DNA from: Ignavibacteriota bacterium
GTDB taxonomy: Bacteria > Bacteroidota > Ignavibacteria > UBA10030 > UBA6906
Direction: 5' to 3'
Length of the DNA stretch: 58,775 nt
Assembly: GCA_003158475.1 (NCBI GenBank)
Contig: PMJR01000096.1
Location: 7,358 to 66,132 of the forward strand
Notes under the pieces: model-generated
What the model saw: the letters and a program-made list of their open reading frames with translations, nothing else
Database searches by the model: none
Told to the model about the DNA's origin: nothing
Position numbers and translations under genes: made by a program
Part shown: in pieces, positions 9,280 to 41,749 of the stretch
Layout of the letters: each line of letters opens with the position of its first letter
How positions within the stretch are numbered: position 1 is the stretch's first letter

Positions 9280-10473
9280 TTGTATAGAGGGGCCTCCATC
9301 ACACACGCGACATCTCCGCGCACTATCGCTATCCTCGGGTCGACGGGTTCGATCGGTCGGAGTACTCTGGAAGTGATCGCCAGCTTCCCCGACCGGTTTC
9401 GCGTCGTGTATCTTTCCGCCAACAAGAATATCGATCTTTTGTGTGAGCAAATCAACAAGTTCCGCCCGAAGGGGGTCGTCGTATCCGACACGGAGCGGGC
9501 CGCAAAGCTCCGCTCCGCAGTGGGGACCGACGTCGAGATCCTTTGCGGGACGGGGGGACTCCTCGACGTCGTCAGCAGGGACGATGTGGATATAGTCGTG
9601 AGCTCGCTTGTCGGATTTGCGGGACTGCGACCGACGCTTCGCGCCGTGGAAGCGGGGAAGGACGTCGCGCTGGCGAACAAAGAGACGCTTGTCGTCGGGG
9701 GAGAGCTCATCATGGGACTGGTGCGCGCCGGGGGAGTGCGTCTCCTCCCCGTCGACAGCGAACACAGCGCAATATTTCAATGCTTGCAGGGGGAAGATCC
9801 CCGGACAGTCGAACGCCTTGTCCTGACCGCCTCCGGGGGGCCGTTTCTTCGCGTCGCGCGGGAGAAGTTCCCCGCAGTGACGGTCGCCGAAGCGCTCAAA
9901 CATCCGACCTGGCGGATGGGAGATAAGATCACGATTGATTCCGCAACGCTTATGAACAAGGGTCTGGAGGTGATCGAAGCCTACTGGCTGTTCGGGATCC
10001 CCCCGGAAAAGATAGAGGTCGTGATTCACCCCCAGTCGATGATCCATTCGATGGTGGAGTTTGTCGACGGATCGATGAAAGCCCAGCTCGGTATTCCGGA
10101 CATGAAGCTCCCCATCCTGTATGCGCTGGCCTATCCCGACAGACTGCCGTTCTCTTCCCGGCGCGTTGATTTCGGAACGCTTCGTGAGATGACGTTCCAT
10201 CCACCCGACATGGAGAAGTTTGAATGCCTTCCCCTTGCGTTTCGCGCGCTCCGGATGGGAGGGACCGCTCCGGCGGTGCTGAACGCGGCAAACGAGGTGG
10301 CGGTCCAGATGTTCCTTGACGGGGATCTCCCGTTTTCCGCCATCCCCTCCGTCATCCGTGACGCGCTGAACGCGCATGCGCCGCTTCACCCGTTTACTCT
10401 GGCCGACCTCGAACGGGTCGATGCGGAGACCAGACTGCGGGCGCGCAGGATACCAGCCACGACATTTTCCTGA
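9280..10473 (+). CDS. dxr: 1-deoxy-D-xylulose 5-phosphate reductoisomerase
   Basis: Dxr makes 2-C-methylerythritol 4-phosphate with NADPH in the MEP isoprenoid pathway. Visible motifs are the dinucleotide site ILGSTGSIG (GSTGSIG at residues 20-26), the metal/substrate site VDSEHSAIFQ, the loop TASGGPF, and ATLMNKGLEVIEA. The start is not obvious because no ATG is in frame. TTG at 9280 is the nearest accepted initiator and gives 397 residues. An ATC at 9298 lies six bases after a good agagggg and would give a more typical short leader, but ATC starts are very rare. rseP begins ten bases after the stop, a common pairing. Confidence 0.93.
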   Translation: MYRGASITHATSPRTIAILGSTGSIGRSTLEVIASFPDRFRVVYLSANKNIDLLCEQINKFRPKGVVVSDTERAAKLRSAVGTDVEILCGTGGLLDVVSRDDVDIVVSSLVGFAGLRPTLRAVEAGKDVALANKETLVVGGELIMGLVRAGGVRLLPVDSEHSAIFQCLQGEDPRTVERLVLTASGGPFLRVAREKFPAVTVAEALKHPTWRMGDKITIDSATLMNKGLEVIEAYWLFGIPPEKIEVVIHPQSMIHSMVEFVDGSMKAQLGIPDMKLPILYALAYPDRLPFSSRRVDFGTLREMTFHPPDMEKFECLPLAFRALRMGGTAPAVLNAANEVAVQMFLDGDLPFSAIPSVIRDALNAHAPLHPFTLADLERVDAETRLRARRIPATTFS

Positions 10474-15175: not shown

Positions 15176-17623
15176 CTATTCTTTGGCCTGCTTTTTCGCC
15201 CGGGCTCTGGAAAGTCCCCGCGCGGGCGCGAAGACGTGACGGAGCCCCTCTTCGATGGTGCTTACCGGGATCAGGGTCAGCCCCTCCTTTACTTTCGCCG
15301 GGATGTCCGCAAGGTCTTTTTCATTCTCCCGGGGGATCAGGACCCTCCCGATGCCGCTCCTCTGTGCCGCGATCAGCTTTTCGTTGAGTCCCCCGATCGC
15401 CAGGACGTCACCCCGGAGTGTGATTTCGCCCGTCATTGCGACATCGCTCCGTGCCGGCTTTCCGCTGACGGCGGAATAGATGGCCATGGCCATGGTGATC
15501 CCCGCCGACGGCCCGTCCTTGGGGATGGCCCCTTCCGGGAGGTGGATATGGATTTCTTTCCCCTTGGAGAACGTCGCGGGGATGCCGAGTGCCCTGGCGT
15601 TCGAGCGGAGAAAGCTCAGCGCCGCCTGGGCGGATTCTTTCATCACTTCGCCGAGCTGACCCGTGAGCGTGAGCTTCTCGGGACCGCTCATCAGCGCGAC
15701 GTCGACATTGAGGAGCTCTCCTCCCACACTGGTCCATGCCAGGCCGGTCACGGATCCCACCCTGTGCCCTTCCGCGCGCGGCCTGTTCCTGAAGCGTGGG
15801 ACCCCTAGGTAGTGCTCGACTTTCTGCGGGTCGACTGTAAACGGGCGGGCAGATTTCTTTTTATTCTTCCCCCCGTTTTTCTGTCGGGCCAGGACGATGT
15901 CTTTTGCGACTTTCCTGCAGACCGAAGCGATCTCCCGTTCCAGGTTGCGAACCCCGGCCTCGCGTGTGTACCCGGTGATGATCGTGTCGATGGCCGCATC
16001 GGTGATCCCGATGGCCATCCCCGCGATGCCGTGCTCGGTGAGCTGCCGTGGGATGATGTGCCGGCGCGCGATCTCCCGCTTGTCATGCTGCATGTACCCG
16101 GCGAGTTCGATGATTTCCATCCTGTCCTGCAGCGGCAGCGGGATGGCGTAACGGACGTTCGCCGTGGTGATAAACATGACGTGCGAGAGGTCGTAGTCAA
16201 TGTCCAGGTAATGATCGTTGAACGCAACGTTTTGTTCGGGATCCAGCACCTCGAGCATCGCGGAGGAGGGATCACCGCGGAAATCCATGCTCATTTTGTC
16301 GACTTCGTCCAGGAGCATCACGGGGTTGATCACGCCCGCCCGCTTCATCGACTGTATGATCTTCCCCGGCATGGAACCGATGTACGTCCTGCGGTGCCCC
16401 CGTATCTCCGCTTCGTCCCGCACACCCCCAAGGGAAATGCGCACCAGCTTTCTGCCGAGCGCGCGGGCGATTGATTTTGCGAGCGAGGTCTTTCCGACCC
16501 CCGGGGGACCGACAAAACAGAGGATCTGCCCTTTCATCTCGGTCACCAGATTGAGGACCGCGATGTGTTCCAGGATCCTCTCCTTCGGCTTTTCGAGGCC
16601 GAAGTGATCCTCGTCCAGGACCTTTTTCACGTGGTCGATGCTGAGGTTGTCTTTGGTCCTTTTGTACCAGGGAACGCTGACCATCCAGTCCAGGTAGCTC
16701 CGGATGACCGTTGATTCCGGGGAGAGGGGGGGGGTCTTTTTCAGCTTTGCGAATTCCTCGAGCGCTTTCTCCTCGGCCGGCTTCGACAGCCTGGCTTTCC
16801 GGATGTCTTCGCGAAGCTTCGTGAGTTCCGGAGATGCCTCTTCGTCGCCGAGTTCATCCTGGAGTATCCTGATCTGTTCCTGGATGAAGAACTTCCTCTG
16901 GGATCTGGCGATATTGTCGTGAACCTTGGTGTCGATCTCCTTTTCGATCTTGAGAACGTCGTTTTCAGAGTTCAAAATCCGTATCAGCTCGTGCAATTGT
17001 TCGCGCATGCCGTGGAGTTCGATGATTTTTTGCTTGACGTCCACGCTCTGCAGAATATTGGAGGCGATGTAGAATACCCTGCGCTGCGCGTCGCGTGTGT
17101 TCTCGAAGGCTACCAGCACCTCGCTCGGCACATTCCTGTTCAGGTGCACATACTCCGCGAAGAGACTGGAGGTGTGCCGCAGAAGGGCATCGAGCTCGGA
17201 GTCCATTTCCCCGGCGGTGGGACCGAGTGTGACCTCGGCCTCCAGGTACTTCGTGTTGGGCACAAACGTCCGCACGGAGGCCTGCACGATCCCGTCAACA
17301 AGGATCTTCATCAGCCCGTTCGGAAGCTTGAGGATCTGGATGATCTTGGCAAGCGTCCCGTCATGGTAGATATCATTCTCCCCGGGTTCTTCCGTCACCG
17401 AGTTACGCTGCGCGGCGAGAAAGATGTACTTCTCCCGCTCCAGCGCCTCGTTCACAGCACGGAGCGAGGATTCTCTCCCCACCAACACGGGGAATATCAT
17501 GTATGGAAAAACGACGACGTCCCGGAGAGGGAGAACGGGGAGGCGTGTGGGGAGGCCGTCGCGACGGTCGCCGGCATGGAGTGTTTCGGCGGATGATTCC
17601 TGGGAGATGTCCACATTCGACAC
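15176..17623 (-). CDS. lon: ATP-dependent protease La (Lon)
   Basis: Lon degrades damaged and regulatory proteins. The 815 residues carry the N-terminal substrate domain ([13 protein letters not shown]), Walker [14 protein letters not shown], Walker [10 protein letters not shown], and the Ser-Lys protease dyad: Ser706 in PKDGPSAG and Lys749 in [10 protein letters not shown], spaced 43 residues as in E. coli. The frame is open to a TTG at 17689, but that codon lies inside the -10 box of a strong promoter, so the first usable initiator is GTG at 17623 (or GTG 17614). No good Shine-Dalgarno is seen. Confidence 0.94.
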
Positions 17624-17641
17624 GGGGTGATGAAGACAGAA

Positions 17642-17664
17642 AAAGGTGTCACGTCGACACCTTT
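17642..17664 (-). promoter_or_regulatory. Inverted repeat in the lon leader (operator or attenuator)
   Basis: AAAGGTGTC and GACACCTTT are perfect 9-bp arms separated by five bases. The repeat lies roughly +9 to +31 relative to the start predicted from the lon promoter and ends 18 bases before the GTG. As DNA it could be a repressor operator; as RNA it would be a stable hairpin ending in a short U run. It is not a CIRCE or HAIR element by sequence. Confidence 0.6.
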
Positions 17665-17679
17665 CACGGTATGTACTGA

Positions 17680-17708
17680 AATATACCAACGGCGGGGACG
17701 TTTGTCAA
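17680..17708 (-). promoter_or_regulatory. Near-consensus sigma-70 promoter of lon
   Basis: Reading the minus strand, TTGACA (17708-17703) is followed by exactly 17 bases and TATATT (17685-17680). This is six of six for -35 and five of six for -10. The predicted start is near 17673, giving a leader of about 50 bases. Confidence 0.8.
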
Positions 17709-41305: not shown

Positions 41306-41749
41306 CTACTTTTGGAGGACCGTCTGGGCAATATTCTCGTAGCTTTCCGGCTGTTTTTTCTGGTACTCCCTGTATGTTGTCGGGTTCCAGATTTCGATTC
41401 GTTCGAGGACGCCAATGATGAGAGCTTCCTTCTCAATCGCGGCCAGACGTTGAAGTTCCTTGGGAATGGTGATTCGCGACTGGCGGTCGAGCTGTGATTC
41501 TACGGCGTTTTCCAGCAGTGTGCGCGTGAAATATCTGTGTTGCGGGTTTGTCGGCGAAAGCTGTCGGATGGACTCTTCCAGCTTGACCCATTCATCCAGT
41601 GGATAGGCGAACAGACATTGCTCGTATCCGCGCGTAATGACGAATGTATCGTTCGCCTCGGGCGAAACGTATTTCCTCAACCGAGCAGGGATGTTCATCC
41701 TCCCTTTTCTGTCAACGGAGTATGCGTATGAGCCCTTGAACGATGACAT
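41306..41749 (-). CDS. mraZ: Transcriptional regulator MraZ
   Basis: MraZ is a DNA-binding repressor of the dcw operon. The 147 residues hold two AbrB/SpoVT-like half-domains with the paired motifs DRKGRMNIPARLR and DRQSRITIPKELQ. It is the first gene of the cluster, and three MraZ-type boxes lie upstream, so autorepression as in E. coli is likely. Confidence 0.95.
   Translation of the reverse strand: MSSFKGSYAYSVDRKGRMNIPARLRKYVSPEANDTFVITRGYEQCLFAYPLDEWVKLEESIRQLSPTNPQHRYFTRTLLENAVESQLDRQSRITIPKELQRLAAIEKEALIIGVLERIEIWNPTTYREYQKKQPESYENIAQTVLQK

Follow-up and report, generated by a model that had tools for sequence, protein, structure and literature searches.

In Escherichia coli the greA leader (GraL) carries an intrinsic terminator immediately after the promoter, with a region of 19 nt before the hairpin, and short RNAs of 49–59 nt are made from P1; only about one third of the transcripts read through, about two thirds being held back, as described in parts of PMC6829880. 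According to the same parts of that paper, a swap of the hairpin arms in which the pairing is kept abolishes regulation, with termination persisting. In the rimP leader, described in parts of PMC2965389, many species keep a short terminator whose stem is conserved and for which no antiterminator is visible; the same paper states that terminators at the 5' end are weaker, on average, than those at the 3' end. The temperature-responsive terminator of Rossmanith et al. 2018 (cited in part of PMC9611254) is a designed device.

The lon leader considered here resembles the greA leader in that there is a terminator within about 60 nt of the predicted start and before the coding sequence. The gene and the phylum are different, however, and feedback by the gene product has been shown for GreA, none being known for Lon; the likeness is one of architecture. 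With rimP it shares a conserved terminator stem before one gene, without an antiterminator, but the stem there is GGGc..gCCC before rimP-nusA-infB and here it is GGTGTC..GACACC before lon, which sets it apart from the rimP type. The CIRCE element of the HrcA system is likewise an inverted repeat close to where a heat-shock gene begins, with conserved arms and a spacer of free sequence, but it has the form TTAGCACTC-N9-GAGTGCTAA, with the spacer fixed at 9 and no T-tract, which is not the form of the lon repeat. The designed device would match the lon mechanism if heat itself raises read-through.

The features of the lon 5' region are given below by their positions in the window, which is the whole stretch of 58,775 nucleotides that was analysed.

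17703..17708, minus strand: -35 hexamer TTGACA of the lon promoter (sequence)
17680..17685, minus strand: -10 hexamer TATATT, spacer 17, preceded by TG (sequence)
17672..17674, minus strand: predicted lon transcript start, about 7 nt past the -10 hexamer (placed by spacing only)
17656..17664, minus strand: hairpin 5' arm AAAGGTGTC (sequence, fold)
17651..17655, minus strand: hairpin loop GACGT, its sequence not conserved (sequence, family comparison)
17642..17650, minus strand: hairpin 3' arm GACACCTTT (sequence, fold)
17640..17644, minus strand: T-tract TTTTT, the first three T of which also pair within the arm (sequence)
15176..17623, minus strand: lon (start codon uncertain; the candidates are GTG at 17623, GTG at 17614, and a non-ATG codon at 17608)

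The promoter, TTGACA-N17-TATATT (17708–17680, minus strand), scores 11/12 and is the best of six promoter-like sites between 10000 and 27000 (3.2 ± 2.0 in shuffles), in agreement with the earlier note on this DNA, which had called it strong. It is of a housekeeping type: across the genome there are 13 sites of the form TTGAC-N-GGTATNTT, which precede tRNAs, polA, and a microcompartment shell gene, among others (gene names from the translations). That a promoter of this strength on a stress protease calls for repression, as the earlier note supposed, is not established. The Lon product has the domains Lon_C, LON_substr_bdg, AAA and Lon_lid, and its closest named relatives are from Ignavibacteria MAGs (fen_1286, 94% identity). 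All of the neighbouring genes are on the minus strand, with a sigma-70-region-2/4 gene upstream, a zf-HC2 gene further upstream, and dnaX downstream. The start of lon (17606–17623, minus strand) is not ATG, the window having GAC ATC TCC CAG where the congeners L032 and L033 have GAC ATG TCC CAG and L036 has GAA ATA TCC CAG; the GTG at 17614 or 17623 may be the start in the window.

The perfect inverted repeat reported just downstream of this promoter is located exactly where it had been placed, on the minus strand, as AAAGGTGTC-GACGT-GACACCTTT (17664–17642), continuing into TTTTTCTGTCTTC from 17644. The T-tract, which the earlier note does not mention, falls on the lon strand and gives the repeat the form of a terminator-like hairpin; a GC-containing stem-loop with a U-tract directly behind it is what defines an intrinsic terminator. 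Hairpin and T-tract sit about 11–40 nt after the predicted transcript start. Only about 16–35 nt separate the U-tract from the lon start codon, which is too short for a second promoter, and all lon transcription should therefore pass the element. The repeat has the anatomy of an intrinsic terminator lying in the path of every lon transcript. The hairpin has a predicted stability of -12.8 kcal/mol at 37 °C and of -7.9 kcal/mol at 55 °C; this loss by itself shows no switch, since control terminators become less stable too. The fold of the 84-nt lon leader of the window is not unusual (z = -1.10).

The repeat is unique within the window (0.01 expected at three mismatches or fewer), and the 3.75-Mb genome has a single place with at most two mismatches and one extra place with three. 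By arithmetic estimate, about one perfect 9-bp repeat with a short loop is expected by chance in every 58 kb, and terminator-like sites number 20 in 17 kb, compared to 13.3 in shuffles; a chance origin is therefore rejected through the conservation of the repeat before lon, and not through the repeat itself. A terminator belonging to the upstream gene was also rejected, as the lon promoter stands between the stop of that gene (17785) and the hairpin. No known RNA family accounts for the leader: the 20 loci scanned, of which 13 have lon leaders and one of these is that of the window (L112), give no Rfam match at the gathering score. The arrangement is rare in this genome. A simple longest-ORF rule, applied to 733 kb made up of the window and fetched stretches, gives 250 genes whose upstream gap is 60 nt or longer, and three of them have a promoter of 9/12 or better followed by a terminator within 50 nt: lon (11/12), mraZ (9/12), and one other (9/12). 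The leader of mraZ (PF02381; window 41306–41749, minus strand) has its promoter-like site followed by a hairpin with TTTTTTT (-10.5 kcal/mol).

The family was represented by 21 genomes, 19 of which gave the lon 5' region; G009 (g7) and G011 (g9) have no lon 5' end and were left uncounted, and G005 was read from a contig end. GGTGTC..GACACC is present between the promoter and lon in 13 of the 19 genomes and 8 of the 11 genera (G000–G004, G006, G007, G008, G012, G013, G015, G017, and G019, with GGCACC instead in G008). The earlier note would have taken a repeat unique to this genome and not conserved before lon as a refutation of its reading; the repeat is conserved before lon in these relatives. 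The element is absent from G005, G010, G014, G016, G018, and G020, where no more than about 30 nt lie between the -10 and the start. In the carriers the loop varies in sequence; it is 5 nt long in 11 of the 13, 8 in G008 and 4 in G013. From the -10 hexamer to GGTGTC the distance is 18–19 nt in 10 of the 13, with the element of G004 12 nt closer to the promoter, and the predicted RNA 5' of the stem is 8–15 nt in 12 of the 13 and 0 in G004. A tract of at least five T follows the 3' arm in 12 of the 13, the exception being G013, which keeps the hairpin without a T-tract, while the A-run before GGTGTC varies from 1 to 6. That the T-tract is kept while the A-run varies indicates a strand-specific constraint.

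A search for the repeat pattern in the own genome and 60 relatives, at three mismatches or fewer, with flanks inspected at 15 matching loci, found places with no more than one mismatch only before lon, with a single exception in G018. There the coding strand has GGGTGTC-N5-GACACC-TTTTTTT a few dozen nt past a stop codon, and by its position this is the GGTGTC stem acting as a putative ordinary gene-end terminator in a genome in which lon is without the element. By appearance, the other inspected matches that are not before lon are coding sequence, intergenic chance matches, or gene-end terminators of the GGCGTC type. The earlier note had proposed the operator of an unknown heat-shock or stress repressor, and as the operator of a regulon this is not supported, there being one site per genome and none before groES or dnaK. 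A leader shared among heat-shock genes is rejected as well, as no such terminator is found upstream of groES, dnaK and AAA_2 matches that have their start inside the locus; for dnaK (L246) there is no leader terminator within 230 nt upstream. What is left of the proposal is an operator with lon as its single target, or a bifunctional palindrome, and the slow evolution of the arms makes either possible.

The repeat had been described as neither CIRCE nor HAIR, and both descriptions hold: the one CIRCE of the genome, at three mismatches or fewer, is exact and is before groES, and the lon repeat does not match the HAIR/HspR or CtsR box consensus sequences (by eye, against the published consensus sequences). 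CIRCE also provides a benchmark within the same family. At 15 groEL loci its arms have no mismatch in 12 and one in 3, with the spacer fixed at 9 in all 15. A gene-end terminator follows groEL at 10 of these loci (-17.0 to -32.4 kcal/mol); in 4 of the other 5 the end of groEL is broken or off the locus. From genus to genus these terminators mostly have different stems, but g10 and g13 both use GCCCTC. The stem before lon is less stable, in line with what PMC2965389 reports for 5' terminators in general, at -10.1 to -14.5 kcal/mol in nine of the ten family members among 87 non-redundant lon upstream regions, the other being G008, where extra outer pairs bring it to -23.9 kcal/mol. In rate of evolution the lon arms are about level with those of CIRCE and slower than the groEL terminator stems. 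Terminator function alone does not need arms this conserved, and their slow evolution, the strongest evidence on this point, suggests that a factor, either RNA- or DNA-binding, may read the sequence.

At the level of the order, 35 genomes were searched with Lon, of which 34 were positive, and 29 of 30 order loci were read upstream (L205 has no lon 5' end). In the same place behind the promoter, the leaders of f6 mostly have GGGTG..TCC..GGA..CCC-TCTTTTTGTTTT, those of f5 have AAGCGG..CCGCTT with a T-run and a loop length that ranges more widely than in f1, and part of those of f3 have GCCC..GGGC-TTTTTTATC. The stem is thus GGTGTC in f1, AAGCGG in f5, GGGTG..TCC in f6, and GCCC in f3; the leaders of f2 and f4 that were read have no such hairpin, and the element is missing in many members of the order. 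What the families share is architecture and not stem sequence.

An automatic rule finds a terminator-like hairpin in 33 of the 87 lon upstream regions of the non-redundant set, where 60 dinucleotide shuffles of each region lead one to expect 7.3. Inspection by eye removed seven (L127, L192, L051, L064, L050, L081, and L091, with the hairpin upstream of the promoter or with long AT-rich folds) and added three (L039, L186, and L178), giving 29 of 87; L181, L183, and L196, which have hairpins with poor T-tracts, were kept as negatives, and L184, L190, L191, and L195, outside the 87, also show the element. On the Lon tree a single supported clade of 47 rows takes in the 29 hand-labelled positives, and the labels need 9 changes, compared to 24.4 when they are shuffled. 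This clade was chosen after the tree with the hand labels had been seen; automatic calls with a position filter number 26 of 47 inside it (1.8 expected, at most 6 in 100 shuffled sets) and 3 of 40 outside it (0.8 expected, at most 4 in the shuffled sets). The architecture was probably gained near the base of the 47-row clade, with several later losses or replacements. For six f6 leaders 87.5% of cells are paired, compared to 25–56% for slid controls, and of 500 shuffles 32 do at least as well in pairing, 233 in two-sided changes, and 29 in pair types. This covariation is weak against shuffles and is only suggestive.

Other hairpins are present near stress genes and promoters. A second copy of lon in the family (45–48% identical) sits behind an hsp20-like gene, named from its C-terminal end, and the gap before it carries a long hairpin of -23.5 to -43.2 kcal/mol whose stem varies from genome to genome (L138:1395–1440 on contig C108 of G000, L131, L133–L137, and L139–L141). 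Near the tip of this hairpin is GGTGGGA in 9 of 10 sequences, with GGTAGGA in L138. It has no Rfam match in the 7 loci scanned and is possibly a structured RNA between two heat-shock genes. On contig C61 of G000 (L143, promoter at 9808), CGGGTTTCTTCC-loop-GGAAGGGGCCCG-TTATTTTT was seen by eye just past a promoter of the lon type, before a serine-hydrolase-like gene named from its translation, and this is a possible second leader terminator. A clpB-like sequence follows dnaK on its contig (C114 of G000), and in the gap between them (L246) there is a hairpin AAAAGGCGAGG-loop-CCTCGCCTTTT with no longer T-tract after it (by eye).

The reading favoured for the lon repeat, with a probability of roughly 0.6, is that it forms the stem of an intrinsic terminator in the lon 5' leader, a promoter-proximal attenuator without room for an antiterminator that would act in the manner of the greA/GraL or rimP leaders. 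It was one of the possibilities named in the earlier note, as an RNA attenuator, and is supported because at least five T are kept in 12 of 13 carriers while the A-run varies, so that one strand is constrained, because the architecture recurs with unrelated stems in other families, and because G018 appears to use the same stem at a gene end. Unlike attenuators with an antiterminator, the lon leader has neither a sensor nor an alternative helix ahead of the terminator; indeed, with about 11 nt of RNA before the stem, and 0 in G004, no antiterminator helix, aptamer or leader peptide fits. Many of the polymerases that start at the lon promoter would terminate in the U-tract, leaving a free RNA of about 35–45 nt, the others would read through and produce lon mRNA, and read-through would rise under stress. 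The extent of read-through might depend on polymerase and its factors, on the effect of temperature on a stem of moderate stability, or on a protein able to recognise that stem. The most economical account is one in which termination is partial, at about +40. Lon would then probably be controlled by the frequency with which polymerase runs through, and not by a shared DNA-bound repressor. Against a pure terminator are the conservation of the arms, which is like that of CIRCE, the lack of a T-tract in G013, the six of 19 family genomes without the element, the weak f6 covariation, and the leader fold z of only -1.10. A stronger form, which is put forward tentatively and is to be doubted, is that Lon of the clade is wholly governed by regulated read-through about 40 nt past the start, with no antiterminator, through a natural heat-labile terminator or through a protein that reads the GGUGUC stem, whether in the RNA or in the DNA of a bifunctional palindrome. 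If true, a heat-shock protease would be switched here in a way for which no report on lon was found.

That the arms are nearly invariant around a spacer of free sequence, as in CIRCE of the same family, would also be expected if a dedicated repressor bound AAAGGTGTC-N5-GACACCTTT as DNA over the lon start, the RNA hairpin being a by-product or the palindrome serving both functions. The loop of 5 in 11 of 13 carriers, the nearly constant distance from the -10, and the arms retained without a T-tract in G013 are consistent with this, and palindromes that may be both terminator and factor site are discussed in parts of PMC2965389. The examples of greA and rimP mean, however, that conserved arms alone do not prove a DNA operator, though they suggest that the sequence is read. 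A repressor is unlikely given the single site per genome, with no other place at up to two mismatches in that of the window and none before groES or dnaK, and given a T-tract that is conserved on one side only. The loop of 8 and the one-sided change in G008, the loop of 4 in G013, and the element 12 nt nearer the promoter in G004 do not favour it either; other families carry unrelated stems at the same place, and the neighbours (a sigma factor, a zf-HC2 protein, and dnaX) include no adjacent regulator tied to the element.

Should the hairpin instead shield lon mRNA from decay, with the U-rich stretch aiding ribosome binding and no termination taking place, its place near the 5' end and the G013 hairpin without a T-tract would be accommodated, as would the lack of an evident Shine-Dalgarno sequence in the window leader (by eye), in a lineage that uses few such sites. 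This is improbable, as a GC-containing stem with T5–T7 directly behind it is expected to terminate and would not be favoured where stability was all that mattered, the T-tract is conserved, and the leaders that are free of the element are without any 5' hairpin. More improbable still is that the promoter mainly yields a small regulatory RNA that acts in trans and ends at the terminator, lon being the read-through product. GraL of the greA leader does also act in this way (parts of PMC6829880 and PMC2965389), but the loop and the 5' sequence, the possible target-pairing parts, are not conserved across genera here.

Little is known of the regulation of lon outside the well-studied phyla. No report of a lon leader terminator was found in the literature searched, most subscription journals being outside its reach, and the word lon is absent from the main text of PMC2965389. 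Natural variants in which the stem is kept, the stem is swapped, the T-run is lost or the element is lost separate stem sequence from stem structure. A lon leader terminator, read as a promoter-proximal attenuator, would provide a concrete and testable mechanism in a lineage that is known mainly from metagenomes.
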